Source: an uncultured Saprospiraceae bacterium
GTDB taxonomy: Bacteria > Bacteroidota > Bacteroidia > Chitinophagales > Saprospiraceae
Assembly: GCA_937951615.1 (NCBI GenBank)
Contig: CALFBH010000001.1
Location: 62,001-126,000, forward strand
DNA: 64,000 nucleotides
Direction of reading: 5' to 3'
In this document: positions 24,237 to 54,304 of the stretch, piece after piece
How the letters are laid out: each line of letters begins with the position of its first letter
Position numbering within the stretch: the stretch's first letter is position 1
Notes under the pieces: model-generated
Database searches by the model: none
Seen by the model: only the letters and a program-made list of their open reading frames with translations
What the model was told of the DNA's origin: nothing
Made by a program: the position numbers and the translations under genes

Positions 24237-26030
24237 ATGATTAAAAGATTATTTTCTAATACAGGACTACTACTGAAGAACTTTGAGTTCCACTCTGGTA
24301 TTAATATCATTTTAGGTAGATATTCAAAAAATGAAGATGCTACTGGAGTTAATGGTATTGGTAAATCAAGTTTAATAAGGTTGATTGATTATGCTTTTTT
24401 ATCAAATAGTGCTCAAAAAATATTTTACGGAAGCCGTTATGACTTCTTACGAGATGAAGAACACGATGTAGTCTTAGAGTTTGAAGTAAATAATAAATCT
24501 TATTTTATTAAAAGAGATTTTAAGAAAAAAAGCCCCGTATTATTTGGTTCTCAGGTAAATAATCTCGAAGAGTTTGAAAAACCTGAATTAGGAATTATAC
24601 TTGCTGATTTATTTCTACCAATAGAAAAAAGCGATGTGTTTTTTGAAGGTAATAAGTTTAGAACAATATTTGACTTTTTTATTAAAGATGATTTAGATAG
24701 CCGTAAAAGGTTTGAACCACTAAATTTTTTAAAATTCAATGCAAACATAAAGCAAAAGTCGATATACAATTTTTTCTTGCTTGGTTTGTCCACAAAAAAT
24801 TTAATTAAGTACGACGAACAATCAAAAGAGTATAATAAAATTAGTTCAGCGATAAAAACAGCCGAAGAGAAAATTAAAATTGACGCAGGTAAATCTATAT
24901 CAGAATACAGAAGTGAACGATTTAATATTCAGCAAAGGGTTGATTTGCTTGAAAGCAGTTTGGATAACTATCATTTTATTGAAAAATATAAAGACCTTGA
25001 AAAACAGTTAGTCAATGTTACAAAGGAAATAAACCTTAAACTTAAAGAGTATAATTCTTTGGACAGAAAATTGAATAAAATAAAAGAAAGCTATGAAGTA
25101 AATAAGAACATAGAAACTAAAGAAATCCAAAAAATATATAATGAAGTAAGTGAAAATTTTGGCAACCAAATCGCAAAAACACTGAATGAAGTTATTGAGT
25201 TTAAAAATAACATTATTCAAAACAGAAAAAGGTATTTAATACAAAAAGAAAAAAAAATACAAGAAGCAATCGATTTAGTATTGAAAGATATTTCAAACAT
25301 GGAGTTTAAACGCAGCAGCTACTATAAAAAAATGGATGAAAGTGGTGCTTTAGATAGTATAAAAAAAACTTATGAGGAGCTGATTATAGAAAAATCGGGT
25401 TTGGAAAAAAATCTGCAAGTAATTAAACAAATAGACGAATATCAGGAGATGCTTGCGAATCTTAATGTAAGAATCAGTGAAGTCCGCAGACAGATTTCAA
25501 GTGAATTAAAAGAATTTGAAAAGAAAATAGATGAGTTAAGAGAGATGTTTGTTGATATATTAAAAAATGCCATTTATGTCGGTGAAAATTATGACAATGC
25601 CTATTTCGACATAACTCCGAACCCAACCTCCAATCGCAATCGACTACCTTTTAATATCGAAATAGAAATACCAAAAGCGGATGCATTAGGACAAGAGCTT
25701 CTAAAGATTGTTGTTTATGATTTAATGGTATTTTTATATAATATCTCTAAGCCTAGAAAATTTCCTGACTTCTTAGTTCATGATGGAGTTTTTCATGGTA
25801 TTTCAATTAAAACGAAAATAAATACTATAAATTATGTTCATCGACATTATCTTAAAAATATAAAAGATAAAAAGCTCCAATATATTTTGACATTTAATGA
25901 AGATGAAATAATAACCTCTGTAGGTGACAACGCTGATTATGGAGAGTTTGGGTTTGACTTCGAAAAAAGTATAGTGGCCGAATTTGAAGACGTACCTGAA
26001 AAAACAATTTTCAAAAGAGTTTTCGATTAA
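24237..26030 (+). CDS. DUF2326-type SMC-like ABC ATPase of the ABC-3C cassette
   Basis: This 597-aa protein is an SMC/RecN-like ATPase. Walker A is GVNGIGKSS (residues 37-45, K43 and S44) after the INIILGRYS strand. Residues ~190-440 are long charged coiled coils. The C-terminal half-site has ADALGQELLKIVVYDLMVFL in place of the ABC signature, and FPDFLVHDGVFHG as the Walker B region, the layout of DUF2326 proteins. In published classifications DUF2326 ATPases are the ATPase component of ABC-three-component conflict systems, and gene order fits. The low G+C (~30% by eye) contrasts with carB next door, suggesting transfer. Its stop is 79 bp before carB. Confidence 0.78.
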   Translation: MIKRLFSNTGLLLKNFEFHSGINIILGRYSKNEDATGVNGIGKSSLIRLIDYAFLSNSAQKIFYGSRYDFLRDEEHDVVLEFEVNNKSYFIKRDFKKKSPVLFGSQVNNLEEFEKPELGIILADLFLPIEKSDVFFEGNKFRTIFDFFIKDDLDSRKRFEPLNFLKFNANIKQKSIYNFFLLGLSTKNLIKYDEQSKEYNKISSAIKTAEEKIKIDAGKSISEYRSERFNIQQRVDLLESSLDNYHFIEKYKDLEKQLVNVTKEINLKLKEYNSLDRKLNKIKESYEVNKNIETKEIQKIYNEVSENFGNQIAKTLNEVIEFKNNIIQNRKRYLIQKEKKIQEAIDLVLKDISNMEFKRSSYYKKMDESGALDSIKKTYEELIIEKSGLEKNLQVIKQIDEYQEMLANLNVRISEVRRQISSELKEFEKKIDELREMFVDILKNAIYVGENYDNAYFDITPNPTSNRNRLPFNIEIEIPKADALGQELLKIVVYDLMVFLYNISKPRKFPDFLVHDGVFHGISIKTKINTINYVHRHYLKNIKDKKLQYILTFNEDEIITSVGDNADYGEFGFDFEKSIVAEFEDVPEKTIFKRVFD

Positions 26031-35900: not shown

Positions 35901-36833
35901 CCTTCTACTTCTGTCTGGCAAACTATTTTATTTCCCACGGCTACTGCGCGATATTTTAGAATAAAAATTCTTTCCAATCAAGACGGAAATAATGTTTCAG
36001 CCCTTGCCGAAATAGAAATAATCGGACACAGTGACTCGGATGGTGACAATGTGTGTGATTTTCAAGATGACTGTCCGCTTGAATATGGCGATATGGCGGA
36101 TAGTGGCTGCCCCACTTGCATTATCTTCGACATGAAAGTTTTATTGGAAGGAGGCTATGATACTACCTCTAATGAAATGACCACTACGCTTAATACAGAA
36201 CGTGGGTTATTGCCCGGACAAACTCCTTCTAATATCTTAGCAACACCTACATCAGCAGGACAACCTTATAGTACTATTCCCTGGAGTTATAATGGTGGAG
36301 AGGGTTCAGACTGGACGGATGTCAATTATTCTGCTGATGTAGTGGACTGGATATTGGTTTCTTTCAGGACGGATATTGATAAAAACACCGAGGTTGGCCA
36401 GGCTGCCGCATTACTGAATAAAAGTGGTGCTATTGATTTTCCGACCTGTGCATTACTCAATCAGGGCATAGATTCAGTCTATGTAATTATTGAACACCGC
36501 AATCATATAGGCATCATGTCGCCACAAAAAGTTGCCATACTGAATGGCACATTGAACTTTGATTTTCGTACAACAGACAGTTATAGGGATTCCACAAGTT
36601 CAGGACAAAAACAATTGCCCAATGGAATCTGGTGTATGTTTGCAGGAGACATTGACCAGTCAGATTTTCCAAGCTATGATATAAACGGTACAGATAAGGC
36701 TGTCTGGCTTCCTGAAAACGGACTTTTTTATCAATATTCTAAAGCAGATACAGATATGAATGGTGATGTAAACGGGGGAGACAAAGCGCTTTGGGATAAA
36801 AATAATGGAGTATCTTCTAGAGTGCCAAAATAA
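32916..36833 (+). CDS. Giant secreted BNR/sortilin protein with shared C-terminal module
   Basis: This 1305-aa protein has a signal peptide (FKLKQILIFCCLFSNLSAQ) and a short acidic helix of the sort found at the start of Bacteroidota sortilin-like proteins. It then has about 770 residues of BNR/VPS10-like repeats (SSDKGLTWSE, STDSGLSFQQ, TTDGGATWTD), a PKD domain at ~805-895, a discoidin/F5-8C domain at ~898-1032 (GDPNTHWHNNW, ARYFRIKIL), a thrombospondin-3 calcium repeat at ~1040-1065, and the shared module at 1068-1305. It should act outside the cell as an adhesin or glycan-binding scaffold. I chose the inner Met at 32916 because it opens the signal peptide; the frame reaches back to 32868. 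A GAACTGTGAGAAAATAAG-type string upstream recurs before the sulfatase gene. Confidence 0.88.
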   Translation: MFKLKQILIFCCLFSNLSAQEIPDYYELLKSEDPNIHQIHEAYNAYYQDHEWEKDQYFRAYREFIRAYKLSDFDEAGNPIKPSFNQHKSAGSAAAVGGEWTSMPVKIDRNDCYYTGQNGVLSAIDVEVNNPNVVYAGTLAGELFKSSDKGLTWSETLINNLPEIGNVNNIKIAHSDSSIIYAATDAGLIKSADGGNTFDMTTIDYRSSFPNINYGGDDYRSEYMYVDVANDDSDKVVTTDINPSNLNTFVAVSQDGGQNWNKYAFGYKNFPVDVKFHPTNSNIIYTLILESSTKKFSFYKSTDSGLSFQQITNGFPVNNNPNQQENRTRIALSQAQPNLVALYFNVNNEGTGFYKSTDSGDSFSKVCCGNTTDIVNNASGNRDFFGEGMNGVQIRWATKFAISDTDSNFVVAATNRAPRLSFNQMQDWFWTPQQINVSNQPYNVMSSTCGTQMHGDLKDIIIRGDDIWIANDGGLALSEDKGQTFTERADGIPVTMALGFDMTQDRRDVIVAAMDHNGIIVRDQSIYGENWKPLGGGDASNASINPIDNLWLYGRPSGDVLFRRPETGPSHSHPSYTGLNVNLGSGYFSRFNNVQFHPNNYYTLYIVDYQNFKIKKSTDNGINWQDILDIQSGNNWSYAEVKVSHSNPDVLYVSDYSNWNSTLSRSANGGQTWNNILPNNIPSGYRVRNIEIDSEDPNVAWLTLNNNYNPIVYKTTDGGATWTDYSAGLDGYKIYSIIHQKGASQGVYVGTRSGVYYIDNTLSSWVKYGTDMDGRNISFLKINYAYNIIRAGTIAGIWENDLYQTNAPQANISMDNNEIDCGEIINFADHSAASVNATYSWSFPGGVPTSSTDERPQVIYPDPGSYSATLTVTDENGTDTYTYNDITVNATACTDFYLCNSVQLIGVSGISESSYYNNERIAQTLDGDPNTHWHNNWPTNAPMPHTLDYDLGETYSINGFRLLNRPDNSNGWTKDIELYGSTDNSNWTLLTSESLPSTSVWQTILFPTATARYFRIKILSNQDGNNVSALAEIEIIGHSDSDGDNVCDFQDDCPLEYGDMADSGCPTCIIFDMKVLLEGGYDTTSNEMTTTLNTERGLLPGQTPSNILATPTSAGQPYSTIPWSYNGGEGSDWTDVNYSADVVDWILVSFRTDIDKNTEVGQAAALLNKSGAIDFPTCALLNQGIDSVYVIIEHRNHIGIMSPQKVAILNGTLNFDFRTTDSYRDSTSSGQKQLPNGIWCMFAGDIDQSDFPSYDINGTDKAVWLPENGLFYQYSKADTDMNGDVNGGDKALWDKNNGVSSRVPK
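36117..36830 (+). other. Shared C-terminal module, copy 1 (238 aa)
   Basis: Encodes the last 238 residues of the BNR protein: VLLEG..YD, RGLLPGQTP, GEGSDWTD..Y..D.VDW, ALLNQGIDSVYVIIEHRNH, then a first loop FPSYDINGTDK and a dockerin-like DTDMNGDVNGGDKALWDK loop, ending SSRVPK. Its codons are the most diverged of the four copies. Confidence 0.85.
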
Positions 36834-40100: not shown

Positions 40101-41053
40101 TTTTGAATGATGCTACCCTGTCGGGGAATGTATTATTAAATGATAATTTTTTCAATACCGTAAATGCGGAGGTTACCACCATACCGATTAATGGAATCCT
40201 GACTTTTAATAATGACGGCTCATTCACCTACATACCTAATCCTAATTTCAATGGAACAGATAGCTTTGTATACCAGATATGCACCAGTCCAGCATACTGT
40301 GACCAAGGAACAGTCAACATCAATGTAGAATCCGGCTGTATTGAACTCAACCTTCATGTCTTGCTGGAAGGCAATTACGACCCAGCAACAGGAGACATGA
40401 CCACTACTCAAAATACATTACGTGGATTGCTCCCAGGACAAACACCAGCCAGCAATTTAGTAACACCAACCCCTGCTGGGCAACCCTATAATACAGCCCC
40501 CTGGAACTATAACGGGACAGAAGGAGCAAGCTGGACAGACGCTGAATATACAGATGATATGGTGGACTGGGTACTGGTTTCTTTCAGAACAGGTATAGAG
40601 AAGAATACAGAGGTCGCACAGGCCGCAGCAGTTCTAAATAAAGACGGCAGCCTCTATTTTTTCGACTGTGGGTTGGAAAATGAAGGCTTCAGTTCGCTCT
40701 ACATTCTTATAGAACATCGCAACCACATGGGGGTTATGTCGCCAATCGCTATATCTGTAAATAATGGGATGCTGACTTATGATTTTCGGCAAAACGATAC
40801 ATATAGAGACATCACGAGTTATGGACAAAAACAATTACCTACAGGCGAATGGGTAATGTTTGCAGGAGATGGCAATCAGCTAGATATGCCAAGCTACGAC
40901 ATACAGGCGCAAGACAAAGCATTATGGCTGATAGAGAATGGGGTGTTTAATCAATACACCAACACCGATTTTAATTTGGATGGCGATGTCAATGGAGCAG
41001 ATAAAGCCCTCTGGGATGCGAATAATGGGGTGTCTTCGAGGGTGCCGAAATAA
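37103..41053 (+). CDS. Secreted lamin-tail/CotH protein with shared C-terminal module
   Basis: This 1316-aa protein has a signal peptide (KKLLFISLFISFHFLLIAQ). A first lamin-tail domain follows at ~30-165 (SVVINELNYRVKKADEQVQY, ELYNTSNQTIDLSGWVI). CotH-kinase-like sequence is at ~335-665 (KNIRFNFNSGH, DFWGVYVIRDYV, FPDDFNAAFG). A second lamin-tail domain is at ~840-970 (VISEIMYNPKADCGNEFIEI), then a cadherin/VCBS-like domain at ~990-1078 and the shared module at 1079-1316. CotH-type proteins phosphorylate spore-coat proteins in Bacillus; secreted bacterial versions are usually linked to cellulose or polysaccharide surface complexes. I cannot tell whether kinase activity is retained. The start was fixed by the signal peptide. 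Confidence 0.88.
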   Translation: MLILNLSCLNKKLLFISLFISFHFLLIAQSVVINELNYRVKKADEQVQYIELYNTSNQTIDLSGWVIEEAVYYQIPSGTMLNANSYLIVADNINAIQNEFNIPGGVAVLGPWKDKLNDNGERINLRNSNYEFIDQVAYSGWQEWPNTKNGAVRSIQKMHPLLPGEYGGSWDGKTPTPGRANSSILVPDPATVSVVKEIAHSPENPVSGEAVEIEVEIANNGQNSGTTVNLEYQIVTPGNYIRRASSSYNTGWIPLDMRDDGQGQDATANDGTYTTEIPANVQVHRRLIRYRVTVQNNNGFSKTFPDPEFDEANYAYYVYDGFPTYNGYDITQLNEMQSIQVIADLDNTSSVTVVYGGEIYDHVDFSFQNFYNASRKNIRFNFNSGHSVKVANDFGQDYEVRRDKLSLSGTYMNDINGHGLTESLIFKLFELNNSTASYADYTQLRIVSDSNENAGGNDGDFWGVYVIRDYVRYGGAGIDGDFLAQRKLPDGNIYGYKNFRLHHEGADGPYGINNSVYTDWNNTLGDSQDGCSSCSVPGISQNYIEANLDLDNHFGFMAAQEFVANNETNYAGQHCYFEYYNPENQKWQIFPDDFNAAFGAPRDEVALYDRSDCDPDEDVKGPLKEQLTAHNSLRIRFENTIRSGVDLLYNEDQGEFLVDNEAAKIYNQNAAYSWTNLDKTRWGQPYSDYADVKQWYKDYIDDRKDYLNNTYGSGKIPNKPSINYTGPAGFPLDQLTFQNSAFADPQGVNTFASLEWRIGEWSDPANPVYDDREDDIYEIIPVWLSGKVNTFSNTYTVDGKGLRQGHTYRVRVKYTDNTGRESRWSDPIEFIAGAPLNAATSPLVISEIMYNPKADCGNEFIEITNAGNTSVSLDGYYFADGVEYSFPRGQSLAAGNRLIIAKDSLAFTYQYGFAPFGEYQKQLSDVGERIELRGTYDVVEDVVTYSNTWGNGSPNDALELIDPQLDNSNPNNWAKRSSICGSPEAEYENIPYAADDNFDILNDATLSGNVLLNDNFFNTVNAEVTTIPINGILTFNNDGSFTYIPNPNFNGTDSFVYQICTSPAYCDQGTVNINVESGCIELNLHVLLEGNYDPATGDMTTTQNTLRGLLPGQTPASNLVTPTPAGQPYNTAPWNYNGTEGASWTDAEYTDDMVDWVLVSFRTGIEKNTEVAQAAAVLNKDGSLYFFDCGLENEGFSSLYILIEHRNHMGVMSPIAISVNNGMLTYDFRQNDTYRDITSYGQKQLPTGEWVMFAGDGNQLDMPSYDIQAQDKALWLIENGVFNQYTNTDFNLDGDVNGADKALWDANNGVSSRVPK
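40337..41050 (+). other. Shared C-terminal module, copy 2 (238 aa)
   Basis: Encodes LHVLLEG.YD..., YILIEHRNHMGVMSP, MPSYDIQAQDKALW and the final D.NLDGDVNGADKALWDANNG loop with SSRVPK. The last ~75 bases are nearly identical to those of copy 4 (about five differences). Confidence 0.85.
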
Positions 41054-41309: not shown

Positions 41310-44300
41310 ATGATGAAGCTTAATCAACTAAGAAACTTTTTATGGACTATTCTTTTATTGATACAATGTCAATTGAGTATTGCCCAAATTATTCCAGCCG
41401 AACTAGGGATAATTCCATGGCCAAAAAACCTTACAGAAAATGTAGGCAATCTTAATCTAACTGTTTCGAGTAGTATAGTTTACGCCGATCCTTCCCTACA
41501 AGCTCTGGCAAATATTCTCAAAGACGATATCGGCAAAATTACTGGACTCAACCTTGCCGTAACATCTGGCACCGCTAATGCTGGCGATATTGAATTGCTT
41601 ATAAATAATAGCCTTCAGGACGAAGGTTATACTTTAGATGTCAATTCAAAAATCATAATTACAGCTAAGGATTATCGGGCAGTCGTATGGGGTATTTCTA
41701 CCTTATTACAATCCATAAATAGTGATGGTTCTGTAAAGAAGATAAGCATTAGCGATTCGCCCGATACCAACTACCGGGGACTAATGGTTGACTTAGCAAG
41801 GCAATGGCATCCTATAGAAAATATTGAAGATATTATCAATATGTGCCGTTTGTATAAAATCAAATATTTGCACTTACACTTGATGGATAGTCAGTATTTT
41901 ACATTCCCAAGCCAAGCCTACCCCTTGCTGCCTACACCAGGTTTTAGCTATTCTTTGGCAGAAATGCAGGGACTTGAAGCCTATTCGCAAGCCCGTGGCG
42001 TGACGATTGTTCCAGAATTGGAAGTACCTGGTCATGCAGGGGCAATGATAGCAGCCTATCCCAACCTTTTTGGGTCAGGCACAAGTGGAGCGATCAACTT
42101 TGCCCGCGCTGATGTACGGGCTGCCGTCGGAACACTTGTCGGCGAAATTGCTGATGTATTTCAAGCCACTCCATACTTTCATATAGGTTGCGATGAAGTT
42201 GACAAATCTGGCATGGGTTCACATCCCGATTATGTTAATGCCATCACAACGTACAACGTTGGAGATGTAGAAGGTTTGTTTAATTATTTTATAAATGAAG
42301 TGAATGGCTATGTAAAAGCCGAAGGCAAAACGACATTAGCATGGGAGGGCTTCGATTCAGGAAGGACAGGAAATGCCAAAGTGGATACAGATGTTATAGT
42401 TTGCCCATTTGACAATTATACAAGTGCAGATGTTTATGCAAATAATGGGCATGACATCCTGAATACTTCGTGGTTTCCTTTGTATCTTATTGGATCTACT
42501 TATGTACCCACAGAAAAAATATATAGTTGGAACAAAACAGAATTTGGCAGATATGCTTCTCCTTTCCCTTTCTCCCATAATAATCCCTATCAATATACAA
42601 TGACCAACACCAGTAAGATAATTGGTGCGCAAACCTGCTCTTGGGAACAAAGGCCTGAATATGAAATCCCCAGTCTGAGAAGTCGCCTATCCCCGATGTC
42701 CGAAAAAATTTGGAACACCAATGCCGGAAGAACTTTTGAAGATTATCAAACTCGATTTGCCAAATCTGATCAGGTGTTGACCACAATACTGGCAACTGTA
42801 GTTCCAGAAGCGATTACGCCTTCAGCAAGTTATGAGGTGTTTTCTGATAAAATTGCCATTCGCTGGAGAGCAGAAGGGCAATACCCAACCGCATACACGC
42901 TCTACCGAAGCACAAGCAACAATAACACTACCGCCACACCTATTTTGAGCAATACGACACTTACTTCTTATGACGACACCAATGTCAGCAACGGACAAAC
43001 ATATTATTACTGGATTAAAGCACACAATACCATCGGTACAAGTACCTTCGGTAATAGCGCAGATGGACGCAAAGGAAGCCTCGCGCTGGTCAATATGTAC
43101 GAACCATTCGATTATGCTGCCAATGCAGGATTGAATGGCTTAAATGGTGGCAACGGTTTTAGTAATGGATGGAATATTACTGGAAATAACGGCACGATTG
43201 AAGTGACAGGTGCCAGCCTGACTTATCCCAATTTGATGACAGGCGGAAATAGTCTGAGTATAGAGATGGATGGTACCACCAATTCTTTCTGGGCCGAAAG
43301 ATCTTTAGCGGGTAGCTTCTGTCCCGAAGGGTCGGAGGTGTGGTTAAGTTTCCTCATCAAAGCGAATAAAGTTGCCGACGGGCATTGCTTTTTAATTTTT
43401 GGAGATGGCTCAATTGGTAAAAAATGGGGCAATGGAATTTATTTTAAAGGAACAAATGTACAATTAGGACTGGTCGATGGGGAAACAAATTTGGTGGTAT
43501 TAAAAATTGAAAGTTTCAATGGAGCGGACAATGTTCATATCTGGACAAATCCAGCCATAGATGGCACGCCGCCGGACATGAATGACCCCAACCTATATTT
43601 CACCGATAGAGAGGATTTGGGTACAAACCCTAAAGTGGCCTTAAACGTACAACGCTGGGGAGAAGGACGTTATGAACTGGATGAATTCAGAGTTGGAGAT
43701 TCTTTTGATGATGTCCTGCCGACAATTGTAGGCTGTGCTGACGCAGACGGAGACAGCGTATGCGATGCCGATGATATATGCCCGAATGGTGATGATAATT
43801 TAGATAATAATAATAACGGTATCCCTGATGCCTGCGACGCTGGAGTTTGTCTTGAAGAGGCACTGGATGACTTTGATTATATCGCAAACACAAGCATTGA
43901 TGCTGCAAATGGTGGTACAGGCTTTAGTGATGCATGGTCGGTAGGTGCCGTCATGAATGGCTCTGTTGATGTATTGTCAGGATCGCTTTCTTATGCTGGT
44001 CACAACAGCTCGGGCAATAAACTCAGAATGACCCTTCAAAATGAAGATGCGACTAAATGGATAAGTAGAAACCTAACACAAGCTTTCCAAAATGGAGATA
44101 CGGTCTGGATGACTTGCCTGATACAGCCCATCTCTCTGGCTGATGGCGGATTCTGGATTAAACCAAATGGCAGACAGGATATAGCGATAGGAAAACGCTG
44201 GGGCAGTCAAATAGCCATTGATAATAGCGGTACAGGAATCAGTGTACAGGAAAATACAGTATCCAAATTAGTGGTCAGATACATATTGGAAAGCAACCAA

Positions 44301-47225
44301 ACCAGAGCGCATCTATGGATTAATAGAAACGATAATTTCACAGATGCCAATGCAGATGCTACTAAAACAGTAGGTTCAACAGCAAATATAAGCAGCGTTC
44401 AAATTGCTATGGAAAGATGGGGCGATGGTGTTATGGAAATTGATGAATTACACATTGGATGTTCGCCCAATCCGACTATAAGCTGTGACCCTTCTTTAGT
44501 TGGAACAAGCTGTGACGATGGTGATGTTTGTACAACAGGTGAAACTTATGATAGCAATTGTAACTGCTCGGGCGGTACATTTCAAGATTTAGACGGTGAT
44601 AGTATTTGCGACGCTAATGATGCCTGCCCTAATGATGACACCAATACTTGTAATGATAATAACGATTGTGACAATCTTTTACCACAACAACAAAATTTGG
44701 TTCTGGGCGAACGAACCATGCTTATCATACGTGGAGTCGATTCGATTACGCATACCTGGAATAATACTGATACCGACTTAGCCACTTTTAGTACGGAACT
44801 TGATACTTATGTTAGGAATACATCCTTCAATAAAGCCTGGGTAACTACCGAAATGACGCCCGTATATGATTTTACAGTAGATCCTAATAATAACGGTTAC
44901 TACCCGATGGGGCAGGCACTGCGCACTATCGCCATTAATAACGGCTATGATGTAGATAGCTATAATGTAATTGCTTACATCCACCAATCCACTACTGACT
45001 TTGGTGGAGCAGGGGCACTTGGTTCTGGCAATGGTTTGCAAGGTACACTTTGGGCAAATAATAATCTGAGTTGGTATTATCCTGGAAATATACATGAAAC
45101 TTTTCATGCTTTTGGCGTTGGTCATGCAAATTGTATTGATGGGGGAAATACGGTTTATCCCGGACAACATGTTGAAGGTTCCGACCCTTATTATTTCATG
45201 GGGAGCCAAGGAGATGCCGGACTGGATACAGATATTCCTAATTATATGAAGTATTGGTTTGGATGGATTGAGCCTTCGGAGGTGTATTGTTTGCCCGAAG
45301 TATCCGCCTGTGTTACGCGAAGAATCTATAAAGCTTCTTTAGTGAGTACTTATAATAACCAGCACAAATACGCTGTCCAACTCGGCGATCATTTATGGAT
45401 CAGTTATGAGCCGGATAATCAAAATACAAGAATAGTGACGAAGGGGCTAATGTTACACTATATTCCGGGGCCGGGATCTGCGATTACAAAACTACTAGAT
45501 ATTCGTCCTGAGTCTATTACTGAGCTGCCACCGGGTGTAGCGAGTAATTATCTACCTGTTATTGACTTCTGGGATGCAGCTATGGAGCAGGGAGATATTG
45601 TCAATTGGGATGGTACAAATATAACAATGATGGATACTGGAGGCACAGGAGATGAAAAATGGGTAGATATTGAATTCTGTGACTGCCTTGTTACCTCAGG
45701 CGATGATGATATTGATGGCGTGTGTAATGATTTGGATGTTTGTCCGAACAGTGATGATAATCTCGATACAGACGGAGACAATATACCAGATGCCTGCGAC
45801 GATTGTCCACTGGCGTACAACAATGATTCCAACGAAGATGGTATTTGTGATAATCTACAATGCCTGCGCAACGCTGCTGAAAGTTTCAGCTATCCAATAA
45901 GTATGGAGATTGATACCGCAAATGGTGGACTAGGCTTTAATGGCAACTGGACGAAGAACAGCCCTGATAACGGAGTCGTTGAGTTTACTTCAGGTTCATT
46001 GTCTTATCCTGATATAACATCTATTGGAGAAAAACTCCACATGAACATTGCCGATGAAACCACCAATACTGCCAGTATTTTAAGAGAGTTAGAAGGAGTT
46101 TACACCAATGGGGATGAATTTTGGATGAGTGTCCTCATAAAAGCCAATAACATAGGAGCTGGTGGTTTTTGGATAAAACCAGGTAATCGTCAGGACATTG
46201 CCATAGGCAAAAGATGGGGAACGCAGTTCTCAATTGACAATAATAGCTCAGTTAATACGATTCAGGGAAATACAACACACTGGTTGGTGGCAAGATACAG
46301 ATTAGAGGCAACACAGACGATAGCTGAACTTTGGGTAGATCCAGACCCCGCAACATTCGATGTGAATGTTCCCGATGCTACAAAAATAGCGGGATCCATC
46401 AGTAATATAAGTTCTGTCGCTATAGCCATTGAACGTTACGGACTTGGTGATTATGAAATCGACGAATTGCGTTTTGACTGCCAGCCTCCTGCACCGCTCG
46501 AACCTAATTGTATAGACATTCAATTACAGGTAATGTTGGAAGGAGCTTATGATATTACGACTACTGAAATGAGCACTAAACTTAATACCGAGCGTGGACT
46601 ACTACCAGGACAAACACCCCTCAATGCCTTAGTAGCACCTACGCCCTCCGGACAACCTTATAGTGCTAACCCCTGGAACTATAATGGAGGCGAAGGCTCA
46701 GATTGGACAGATACAAATTACGCTGCGGATATAGTTGATTGGGTATTGATCTCTTTTAGAACGAGCAGGGAAAAAAACACAGAAATTGCACAAGCTGCTG
46801 CATTAGTAAATAAAAGCGGTCTTGTCCAGTTCCCAAGCTGTGCTTTACTCAACCAGGGTATAGATTCAGTCTATATAGTCATAGAACACCGAAATCATAT
46901 TGGCATTATGTCACCTTACGCTATTCCTGTTATCAATGGAGTATTAAGTTACGATTTCACAGCAGCAGACAGCTACAAGGATACGACCAGCTTTGGTCAA
47001 AAACAGTTAGCTAATGGCAACTGGTGCATGTTCGCAGGTGATGTTGATCAGTCAGATCTTCCGAGTTATGATATAAATGGTATAGACAAAGCAGCCTGGA
47101 GTCCAGAAAATGGGCTTTTTGATCAATATTCTGATACTGACATGAATCTGGATGGCGATACCAATGGCGCAGATAAAGCCCTCTGGGATCTAAATAATGG
47201 CGTGTCTTCGAGGGTACCGAAATAA
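41310..47225 (+). CDS. Secreted GH20 hexosaminidase-metzincin fusion with shared C-terminal module
   Basis: At 1971 aa this is the largest protein of the window. After a signal peptide (FLWTILLLIQCQLSIAQ) come a GH20 N-domain (27-150) and the GH20 catalytic barrel (150-~490) with HIGCDEVD, catalytic D295-E296. A fibronectin-like domain is at ~502-594. Three copies of a ~205-aa concanavalin/laminin-G-like domain (~596-804, 847-1053, 1518-1727) are separated by thrombospondin-3 repeats. At ~1120-1460 sits a metzincin-like protease with HETFHAFGVGH, i.e. HExxHxxGxxH with H1262, E1263, H1266 and H1272. The shared module is 1734-1971. It could remove terminal N-acetylhexosamines and also cleave protein, as expected for attack on glycoproteins. 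The linkage of both activities in one chain is unusual. Confidence 0.88.
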   Translation: MMKLNQLRNFLWTILLLIQCQLSIAQIIPAELGIIPWPKNLTENVGNLNLTVSSSIVYADPSLQALANILKDDIGKITGLNLAVTSGTANAGDIELLINNSLQDEGYTLDVNSKIIITAKDYRAVVWGISTLLQSINSDGSVKKISISDSPDTNYRGLMVDLARQWHPIENIEDIINMCRLYKIKYLHLHLMDSQYFTFPSQAYPLLPTPGFSYSLAEMQGLEAYSQARGVTIVPELEVPGHAGAMIAAYPNLFGSGTSGAINFARADVRAAVGTLVGEIADVFQATPYFHIGCDEVDKSGMGSHPDYVNAITTYNVGDVEGLFNYFINEVNGYVKAEGKTTLAWEGFDSGRTGNAKVDTDVIVCPFDNYTSADVYANNGHDILNTSWFPLYLIGSTYVPTEKIYSWNKTEFGRYASPFPFSHNNPYQYTMTNTSKIIGAQTCSWEQRPEYEIPSLRSRLSPMSEKIWNTNAGRTFEDYQTRFAKSDQVLTTILATVVPEAITPSASYEVFSDKIAIRWRAEGQYPTAYTLYRSTSNNNTTATPILSNTTLTSYDDTNVSNGQTYYYWIKAHNTIGTSTFGNSADGRKGSLALVNMYEPFDYAANAGLNGLNGGNGFSNGWNITGNNGTIEVTGASLTYPNLMTGGNSLSIEMDGTTNSFWAERSLAGSFCPEGSEVWLSFLIKANKVADGHCFLIFGDGSIGKKWGNGIYFKGTNVQLGLVDGETNLVVLKIESFNGADNVHIWTNPAIDGTPPDMNDPNLYFTDREDLGTNPKVALNVQRWGEGRYELDEFRVGDSFDDVLPTIVGCADADGDSVCDADDICPNGDDNLDNNNNGIPDACDAGVCLEEALDDFDYIANTSIDAANGGTGFSDAWSVGAVMNGSVDVLSGSLSYAGHNSSGNKLRMTLQNEDATKWISRNLTQAFQNGDTVWMTCLIQPISLADGGFWIKPNGRQDIAIGKRWGSQIAIDNSGTGISVQENTVSKLVVRYILESNQTRAHLWINRNDNFTDANADATKTVGSTANISSVQIAMERWGDGVMEIDELHIGCSPNPTISCDPSLVGTSCDDGDVCTTGETYDSNCNCSGGTFQDLDGDSICDANDACPNDDTNTCNDNNDCDNLLPQQQNLVLGERTMLIIRGVDSITHTWNNTDTDLATFSTELDTYVRNTSFNKAWVTTEMTPVYDFTVDPNNNGYYPMGQALRTIAINNGYDVDSYNVIAYIHQSTTDFGGAGALGSGNGLQGTLWANNNLSWYYPGNIHETFHAFGVGHANCIDGGNTVYPGQHVEGSDPYYFMGSQGDAGLDTDIPNYMKYWFGWIEPSEVYCLPEVSACVTRRIYKASLVSTYNNQHKYAVQLGDHLWISYEPDNQNTRIVTKGLMLHYIPGPGSAITKLLDIRPESITELPPGVASNYLPVIDFWDAAMEQGDIVNWDGTNITMMDTGGTGDEKWVDIEFCDCLVTSGDDDIDGVCNDLDVCPNSDDNLDTDGDNIPDACDDCPLAYNNDSNEDGICDNLQCLRNAAESFSYPISMEIDTANGGLGFNGNWTKNSPDNGVVEFTSGSLSYPDITSIGEKLHMNIADETTNTASILRELEGVYTNGDEFWMSVLIKANNIGAGGFWIKPGNRQDIAIGKRWGTQFSIDNNSSVNTIQGNTTHWLVARYRLEATQTIAELWVDPDPATFDVNVPDATKIAGSISNISSVAIAIERYGLGDYEIDELRFDCQPPAPLEPNCIDIQLQVMLEGAYDITTTEMSTKLNTERGLLPGQTPLNALVAPTPSGQPYSANPWNYNGGEGSDWTDTNYAADIVDWVLISFRTSREKNTEIAQAAALVNKSGLVQFPSCALLNQGIDSVYIVIEHRNHIGIMSPYAIPVINGVLSYDFTAADSYKDTTSFGQKQLANGNWCMFAGDVDQSDLPSYDINGIDKAAWSPENGLFDQYSDTDMNLDGDTNGADKALWDLNNGVSSRVPK
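46509..47222 (+). other. Shared C-terminal module, copy 3 (238 aa)
   Basis: Encodes LQVMLEGAYD, RGLLPGQTP, VYIVIEHRNHIGIMSP, LPSYDINGIDKAAW and D.NLDGDTNGADKALWDLNNG with SSRVPK. DNA at the 3' end is again close to copies 2 and 4. Confidence 0.85.
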
Positions 47226-51736: not shown

Positions 51737-54304
51737 ATGAACAAAAATATTCAGCTCTACAAAATTTACCAGATTAAATCAACCTTCTGGTTTTCTAAGC
51801 TAACGCTTCAATTATATGTATTAAGTCATCTACTTACTTTTTTGCCCCATCAGGTGTTTGCGCAAGGAAATCCACCTAATATGCTTGTTATCATGGCAGA
51901 TGATCTGGGATATTATGATATAGGGTTTAATCGTATTCATGCACCTGATGAGCCATATTATGGTATTATTCCGACTCCAAATATTGACCGAATCGCGCAA
52001 AGCGGTGTTACTTGTACCCGTGCTTATGTTGCTCATCCATTTTGCGGACCGAGTAGAGCAGCATTGCTGACAGGTCGTTATCCCCATGAAGTAAACTCAC
52101 AATATAATTTACCAAACGGTGGTAAAGATTGCAATGGACAGGATGTAGGAATACCTATTGGTCCTGATTCCGATTTTTTTAGCAAAGTTCTTCAGGAGGA
52201 GGCAAATTATACGACGTATATGGTCGGGAAGTGGCATTTAGGCAATGCACAACAGTTTGATCCTATTTCCAGAGGATTTACGGAATATTATGGTTTTTTG
52301 GGTGGTGGTCATCAATATTTTCCTGCTGGAGATCCAAGCCAGGGAATCAATAGTTCAAATCAGATTGCAGCCAATCAAAACAACACAGGAATCAATGATT
52401 ACTTTAAGTATTTGGAAAAGAACCGACAGGTGATTCCTGATGAGAGTCGATATGTTACCCGTGCAATTTCAGAAGAAGCTGTCAATTTTATTAAAGCTGG
52501 AAAGCAGTCTAGCCAACCCTTTTTAGCTTATGTAGCCTATAATGCCCCACATACTCCTTTGCAGGCACCTCTACCCGACAAAGATCAATTCCTTTTAGAT
52601 AATCCGAATTTCTTAAGTAATATAGAAAATAGCCCCGATATCCTCAATTCAAATAATGTAATAAATGCTGCTACAGAAGCAGAAAGACAAGAAATAATTG
52701 CTGAACTCATACAAGACCGCATTACTTATGCTACAATGGTCGCCATTATGGATGAAGGGATTGGAAATATCCTTGATGAACTCCAAAGTAGTGATGATGG
52801 TGGTAGTGTTTTTGACAATACAATTGTCATATTTTTAAGTGATAATGGTGGCAAATTGAGAGAAGCTGGAGGCGTAAACTACCCGCTAGACCGTGGTAAA
52901 GGATCTGTGAACGAAGGAGGATTTAGAGTGCCTATGGCCATTAGTTGGCCAGATGGAGGAGTTCCTGCCAACCTACTTCACAACTATCCCGTTTCATCAC
53001 TGGATATTTATCCTTCATTATTGGCTGCTGCCAATTTAGCGATACCTAATCGGTTAGATGGGGAGAATGTACTCAATGATATTAAAACAACTTCTCCGAC
53101 ACTCAGAAATGATCCGCTGTACATTTTACGTCATTATAACGGATTTAGTAATGTGAGTATCATGGACAACATTCCGGGTTCTGAAAAGAAAGTGATAAAA
53201 AAGGCTAATGGAGACTGGCAATATTACGACTTGGCTTCAGATATTACGGAGATGAATAACCTCAATAATGGAGCAACTGTCCTAGAAGCTGAAACGATTA
53301 TTCATCGACTAGTACCTAAAGTGAGAATATTAGCAGAACAACACCTTCAACCGCTTTTTTTTGATAAATGTAATGTAGGAGAGAATTGGGTTAATAATAA
53401 TATGCCAAGATTTAAAGATGCTAGTAATAGACCCGAAGCAGATACGCCTGATGAAACATTCTATTTTGACTGTTATGCCAATCTAACTGATAGCGATAAC
53501 GATGGCGTCTGTGATGAACTCGATTTATGCCCGGGCGGAGAAGATGCTATAGATGCTAATGCCAATGGTATTCCTGATTTTTGTGATGCCTGTGTAGATG
53601 TACAATTAAATGTTCTCTTGGAAGGCACATATAATACAGCTATAGATGCAATGGAAACAGCACTGAATACACAGCATGGAATATTACCAGGACAGACACC
53701 TGTCAGTTTACTCATTACACCTACACCACAGGGACAGCCCTATAATAATCCTCCCTGGAATTATGTGGGGGGAGAAGGCTCAGACTGGACAGACATCAAT
53801 TATTCCTCCGATGTGGTGGACTGGTTACTAGTTTCTTTTAGGACAGGCGAAGAAAAAAACACTGAAATTAGCCAGGTTGCTGCGCTCTTGACCAAGAGTG
53901 GATCTGTTGATTTCCCGACTTGTGCGCTACTCAATCAGGGGATAGATTCGGTTTATGTCGTTGTCGAACACCGAAATCACATGGGCATTATGTCGCCACA
54001 GAAAGTTGCAATACTGAATGGCATATTGAGTTTTGATTTCAGTCTAGCGGATAGCTATAGAGATGCTACTAGTTTTGGACAAAAACAGATGGGAGCGAAA
54101 TGGGGTATGTATGCAGGAGATGGCGACCAGTCAGATTTTCCCAGCTACGATATACAAGGCACAGACAAGTCTTTATGGTTGGAGAGCAATGGAACATTCA
54201 GTAGTTATGATATAAGAGATTTTAATCTAGATGGCGATGTCAATGGAGCAGATAAAGCCCTTTGGGATGCGAATAATGGCGTCTCTTCGAGAGTGCCGAA
54301 ATAA
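51737..54304 (+). CDS. Secreted sulfatase with shared C-terminal module
   Basis: This 855-aa protein should have a signal peptide within the first ~44 residues (LTLQLYVLSHLLTFLPHQVF, then AQ). It has a family S1 sulfatase domain (~44-580): MLVIMADDLGYYDIG with paired aspartates 55-56, HPFCGPSRAALLTGRYP with Cys103 as the formylglycine precursor in CxPSR, GKWHLG, and SDNGG near the end of the active-site region. A thrombospondin-3 repeat at ~583-618 leads to the shared module at 619-855. It should remove sulfate esters from a glycan outside the cell and needs a formylglycine-generating enzyme or anSME, neither in this window. With the GH20 gene it suggests sulfated N-acetylhexosamine substrates. 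I moved the start from 51704 to 51737 because of the terminator. Confidence 0.9.
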   Translation: MNKNIQLYKIYQIKSTFWFSKLTLQLYVLSHLLTFLPHQVFAQGNPPNMLVIMADDLGYYDIGFNRIHAPDEPYYGIIPTPNIDRIAQSGVTCTRAYVAHPFCGPSRAALLTGRYPHEVNSQYNLPNGGKDCNGQDVGIPIGPDSDFFSKVLQEEANYTTYMVGKWHLGNAQQFDPISRGFTEYYGFLGGGHQYFPAGDPSQGINSSNQIAANQNNTGINDYFKYLEKNRQVIPDESRYVTRAISEEAVNFIKAGKQSSQPFLAYVAYNAPHTPLQAPLPDKDQFLLDNPNFLSNIENSPDILNSNNVINAATEAERQEIIAELIQDRITYATMVAIMDEGIGNILDELQSSDDGGSVFDNTIVIFLSDNGGKLREAGGVNYPLDRGKGSVNEGGFRVPMAISWPDGGVPANLLHNYPVSSLDIYPSLLAAANLAIPNRLDGENVLNDIKTTSPTLRNDPLYILRHYNGFSNVSIMDNIPGSEKKVIKKANGDWQYYDLASDITEMNNLNNGATVLEAETIIHRLVPKVRILAEQHLQPLFFDKCNVGENWVNNNMPRFKDASNRPEADTPDETFYFDCYANLTDSDNDGVCDELDLCPGGEDAIDANANGIPDFCDACVDVQLNVLLEGTYNTAIDAMETALNTQHGILPGQTPVSLLITPTPQGQPYNNPPWNYVGGEGSDWTDINYSSDVVDWLLVSFRTGEEKNTEISQVAALLTKSGSVDFPTCALLNQGIDSVYVVVEHRNHMGIMSPQKVAILNGILSFDFSLADSYRDATSFGQKQMGAKWGMYAGDGDQSDFPSYDIQGTDKSLWLESNGTFSSYDIRDFNLDGDVNGADKALWDANNGVSSRVPK
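53591..54301 (+). other. Shared C-terminal module, copy 4 (237 aa)
   Basis: Encodes LNVLLEGTYN, HGILPGQTP, VYVVVEHRNHMGIMSP, FPSYDIQGTDKSLW and D.NLDGDVNGADKALWDANNG with SSRVPK. It is one residue shorter than the other copies. Confidence 0.85.

Follow-up and report, generated by a model that had tools for sequence, protein, structure and literature searches.

A predicted secreted Saprospiraceae polypeptide joining a GH20 hexosaminidase domain to an M6-like metzincin domain

Glycans protect proteins against proteases, and a locus in an uncultured Saprospiraceae bacterium raises the question of whether one secreted chain could act on both the sugar and the protein of its target. In the 64,000-nucleotide stretch of DNA that was analysed (hereafter the window), an initial annotation had read a single secreted polypeptide as a glycosidase joined to a metzincin protease. 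Translation of the window bore this out with an uninterrupted frame of 1971 codons at 41310-47225 (+), whose N terminus resembles a signal peptide and ends in ..CQLSIAQ as read from the sequence. The order along the chain is signal peptide, GH20, fn3-like domain, two ConA-like domains, protease, a third ConA-like domain, and a C-terminal module of 239 residues (Table 1).

Table 1. Features of the gene and of related sequences. Positions are those of the window, except for the G566 relative, which is given on its own locus.
Feature	Position	Strand	Basis
Whole gene, 1971 aa	41310..47225	+	Open frame; G397 orthologue of nearly full length
Signal peptide, residues about 1-26	41310..41387	+	Sequence reading
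GH20 domain 2 (PF02838), residues 33-149	41406..41756	+	Pfam
GH20 catalytic domain (PF00728), residues 154-469	41769..42716	+	Pfam; comparison with PDB 3RCN and relatives
D295-E296 codons	42192-42197	+	Within GH20 catalytic domain
fn3-like domain, residues about 495-590	42792..43079	+	Weak Pfam fn3 match; stronger in G566 relative
ConA-like beta-sandwich domain 1, residues about 596-805	43086..43730	+	Profile; fold inferred from domain 3
ConA-like beta-sandwich domain 2, residues about 848-1055	43851..44483	+	Profile; fold inferred from domain 3
M6-like metzincin domain (predicted), residues 1123-1462, ~340 aa	44676..45695	+	Conservation, structure models, TIGR03296, hhalign
HETFHAFGVGH zinc-binding motif, residues 1262-1272	45093..45125	+	Motif search, alignment, chance estimate
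Met1297, candidate Met-turn residue	45198..45200	+	11/12 conserved; aligned with M6 Met-turn
ConA-like beta-sandwich domain 3, residues 1516-1732	45864..46502	+	Profile, AF2 model, structural matches
Shared C-terminal module, residues 1733-1971, ending SSRVPK	46506..47222	+	Genome-wide recurrence
C-terminal module copies in window	36114-36830, 40334-41050, 46506-47222, 53588-54301		
G566 relative	L043 1994-8581	-	GH20...protease, catalytic pair lost

For the GH20 block, both Pfam families were matched well above their cut-offs, PF02838 at E 4.8e-22 (79.5 bits against 26.1) and PF00728 at E 1.3e-42 (146.9 bits against 22.3), and solved hexosaminidase structures were matched by phmmer. HIGCDEVD begins at residue 291, and the numbering of the proposed catalytic pair as D295-E296 is therefore correct; in alignment the pair falls in register with the Asp-Glu of PDB 3RCN and of the relatives. 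With these matches and the position checked, the GH20 reading stood. The surroundings of the active site are atypical, with HIGCDE for HIGGDE and HLMDSQYF for HLTDDQGW. The window protein thus shares with GH20 beta-N-acetylhexosaminidases such as 3RCN both Pfam families and the Asp-Glu pair, but differs from them in these two segments and in the joined protease.

The separate HExxHxxGxxH site that had been proposed was located as HETFHAFGVGH. Chance occurrence of the pattern was ruled out by an expectation of 1.9e-5 at the composition of the protein and by its appearance in one of 20,000 shuffles. Conservation was followed in an alignment (A5) of 11 close members and one divergent paralogue, reaching down to 32% identity. 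All 12 sequences keep H1262, E1263, H1266, and H1272, and G1269 and M1297 are changed only in the divergent paralogue, from Flavivirga. A comparison is offered by the thuringilysins, which we take to be M6 peptidases. Their third zinc ligand is Asp, and an HExxHxxG/NxxH/D motif is among the features of the metzincin clan MA(M) (PMC12237041). That motif is present in the protease domain, with His at the third ligand position in 12 of 12.

Searches for a family gave a mixed outcome. Pfam has no match for residues 1123-1462, and searches of NCBIfam and of PDB sequences gave nothing of use. M6 and M11 had been suggested as candidate families; M6 proved the right direction, as judged by the structural match to InhA2 described below and by TIGR03296, but PF05547 (M6) matched none of 10 members in Pfam, nor did PF05548 (M11 gametolysin) match the protease domain. 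A genome search for M11 carries no information, as its controls were silent too. TIGR03296, the NCBI model for M6, weakly matched five of the 12 members (best E 6.1e-5), the domain of the window itself being unmatched. When aligned by hhalign with two true M6 domains (confirmed by PF05547), the HExxH, the Met, and a K..GWI segment came into register at P 0.002; this is taken as supportive only, because the accompanying probability of 13% is low.

Structure prediction was more informative as to fold. A first AlphaFold2 model, made from 10 close sequences, had a pLDDT of 56.5 and was too weak to be used alone, yet the structures that Foldseek and VIA matched to it best were nearly all metzincins (InhA2, fragilysins, Amuc_1438, OgpA, ADAMs, and snake-venom enzymes). 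A second model, spanning the protease and the following beta-sandwich domain (23 rows), reached pLDDT 76 and ran strand, long helix, strand, helix, and three strands before the HExxH helix. This metzincin-type order places HExxH on a predicted helix at model residues 135-145 (protein residues 1257-1267), in keeping with an active-site helix. InhA2 (4yu5) was the best structural match, with Z 17.2 and rmsd 4.2 over 294 residues (model residues 10-338). A Met-turn is supported by conservation and alignment, Met1297 being kept in 11 of 12 sequences and collinear with the M6 Met, but its loop was predicted at pLDDT under 50.

Motif, conservation, predicted topology, and the InhA2 match together uphold the metzincin assignment, and we are highly confident that the GH20 and protease domains are what they appear to be. 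The protease domain is predicted from sequence and models to be an M6-like metzincin branch in fold, outside the curated M6 models, because InhA2 is its best match, TIGR03296 matches weakly and only in part, and His stands in place of Asp. It resembles M6 InhA2 (PDB 4YU5/4YU6) over the whole domain, as well as in TIGR03296 and the register noted above, but differs from M6 peptidases in the missing PF05547 match, in an identity of about 10%, and in the third ligand. OgpA and Amuc_1438 from Akkermansia are O-glycopeptidases (PMC7518263). They share the metzincin fold and a three-His zinc site (Z 8.4-9.6 against the first model), but the match is confined to the peptidase core, some 140-150 residues, and nothing seen in the domain of the window points to O-glycan recognition.

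Three homologous laminin-G-like domains had been placed between the two enzymes, with shared-module sequence following the protease. The three are indeed mutually homologous, with hmmsearch values of 6e-98 to 1e-112 for a profile built from the three themselves and pairwise identities of 28-48%, and the shared module does close the chain; however, only two of the domains lie between the enzymes, the third coming after the protease and ahead of the module. No match to them was found by sequence in Pfam, LamG included, or in the PDB. Domain 3 was modelled with many strands at high pLDDT in the second AlphaFold2 model, and its nearest structures were a BT_1020 domain (Z 17.1), GH131, Cip1, calreticulin, and CBM66, with legume lectins nearest by Foldseek. 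The name laminin G, which no model upholds, was dropped in favour of these other ConA-like structures. Because there is no LamG match and the nearest folds are of lectin or CBM type, ConA-like is the safer label, and the domains are possibly glycan-binding. Secreted proteases with modules of carbohydrate-binding type are also found in the CBM-bearing M60-like mucinases BT4244 and HC11, which depend on their CBMs, but these belong to another peptidase family, and no glycosidase domain is reported for those described there (PMC13003899).

To place the chain among its relatives, genome collections were used, which yielded mostly Saprospiraceae metagenome-assembled genomes, one from Chitinophagales, and Flavivirga aquatica. 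The protease family looks rare. A single-sequence scan of 395 phylum-wide genomes matched only the genome of the window (1 of 395), and the family was found in four of 298 genomes of the order and eight of 298 of the family Saprospiraceae. A phylum-wide profile search at E 0.1 added only short matches; L048, L049, and L051 were inspected as possible members and two were unrelated, while L051 is a small putative metallopeptidase with HEVGHAFGLVH whose membership is unsupported. No relatives of the protease domain were found in viral contigs or plasmids.

The GH20...protease order occurs in four genomes of three genera (the window, G397, G808, and G566). G397, of the same genus as the window, holds a near full-length orthologue with identities of 77% in GH20, 81% in the protease, and 59% in the C-terminal module. 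In G808 a GH20 domain with canonical HIGGDEVD shares its contig and orientation with the protease, an assembly gap interrupting what is likely a single gene, and in G566 the order is held in one frame of 2196 residues. Elsewhere the protease module has other company or none. In G403, of the same genus as G808, it is preceded by an S8 subtilase (PF00082, E 5e-50), and the protease domains of G403 and G808 are sisters in the tree (support 100/98). It stands alone in L028, L029, L034, and Flavivirga, where one member consists of the module and a T9SS tail only. Since GH20, S8, or no partner is seen across relatives, the protease behaves as a portable cassette that has had at least two catalytic partners, GH20 among them. 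On a small tree with weak deep support, either a single ancestral fusion followed by losses or repeated joining could have given this pattern.

The same exchange of partners would be expected if two independent enzymes had come onto one chain through shuffling of secreted modules, with no common substrate. The subtilase joined to the sister of the G808 protease domain and the stand-alone modules speak for that explanation, but it is somewhat unlikely given that the GH20...protease order is kept across three genera. Another possibility is that the work is done by the protease, with GH20 mainly a targeting module whose glycosidase activity is altered, weak, or vanished. This is what G566 would suggest: its GH20 has lost the Asp-Glu pair, the arginine of D.AR, and the histidine of PGH and has fallen to 28% identity with the window, against 61% for a protease whose motif is intact. 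However, the Asp-Glu pair is retained in the window, G397, and G808, the last in canonical HIGGDE form, and between the window and G397 GH20 is nearly as conserved as the protease, and we regard this possibility as unlikely. That the metzincin-like domain is inactive or serves self-maturation only, as its want of a sequence relative of known activity and a divergent paralogue in which Gly is replaced by Ser and Met by Leu might suggest, is improbable when the zinc ligands and Glu are invariant down to that paralogue and a stand-alone secreted version exists. The paralogue (L030:3728-5794, 32% identity, HEMLHMFSVGH with HxxS for HxxG) is one of two neighbouring members in Flavivirga aquatica, the other lying at L030 6938-8293 on the opposite strand.

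The gene sits in a run of five large genes for secreted proteins on one strand (32868-54304), which encode a BNR/Vps10-like protein with F5/8C, a lamin-tail protein with CotH, the GH20-protease, a malectin/PA14 protein bearing a T9SS type A tail, and a sulfatase. Four of the five, the sulfatase included, are closed by the 239-residue C-terminal module, which is common to about 60 proteins genome-wide and frequent in relatives. It contains two DxNxDG-like repeats and ends in (G)[VI]SS[R]VP[KR] flush with the stop codon. No Pfam or NCBIfam model matched it; a possible role is that of an export or anchoring signal not described before. SprA is the T9SS translocon; because the genome encodes it, export by this route is plausible for proteins with the module. 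Elsewhere in the window, a DUF2326/AAA ATPase (24237-26030) is matched by PDC-M68B, a candidate defence model of PADLOC, at E 6e-55 and less strongly by LmuB.

On balance, the polypeptide is probably a secreted two-centre enzyme whose net effect, with both activities and the substrate predicted, would be coordinated breakdown of glycoprotein or of a glycan-protein matrix. The mechanism of family GH20 is substrate-assisted, and by it this domain would trim terminal beta-linked GlcNAc or GalNAc. The metzincin would hold zinc on its three histidines and, with Glu1263 as general base, cut polypeptide. The three ConA-like domains would most likely bind glycans and keep both centres on one glycosylated target, while the C-terminal module would export or anchor the chain, T9SS being the putative route. 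Glycoconjugate targets, for which mucins and proteoglycans were first proposed as candidates, agree with the lectin-like domains and the nearby secreted sulfatase, which single out none of them, and we hold with moderate confidence that both domains would act on one glycoprotein target. Other species carry the protease module with no GH20 attached, so the protease does not depend on coupling.

Chains that join different degradative activities have a precedent in Bacteroidota (PMC13235733). A literature search, with most subscription journals outside its reach, found no papers on GH20-protease fusions. More tentatively, the protease may represent a peptidase family of its own, new and intermediate between M6 and metzincins with a three-His site, a cassette distributed among GH20, S8, and no partner, and its GH20 version may be a two-step depolymerase in which the glycosidase bares the peptide for the protease. 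With a hexosaminidase, a protease, and lectin-like domains in one secreted molecule, the enzyme could strip the protective shield and cut the core, and the fused chain allows a direct test of the coupling of glycosidase and protease. It points, too, to a metalloprotease family absent from Pfam that has been swapped between catalytic partners in close relatives.
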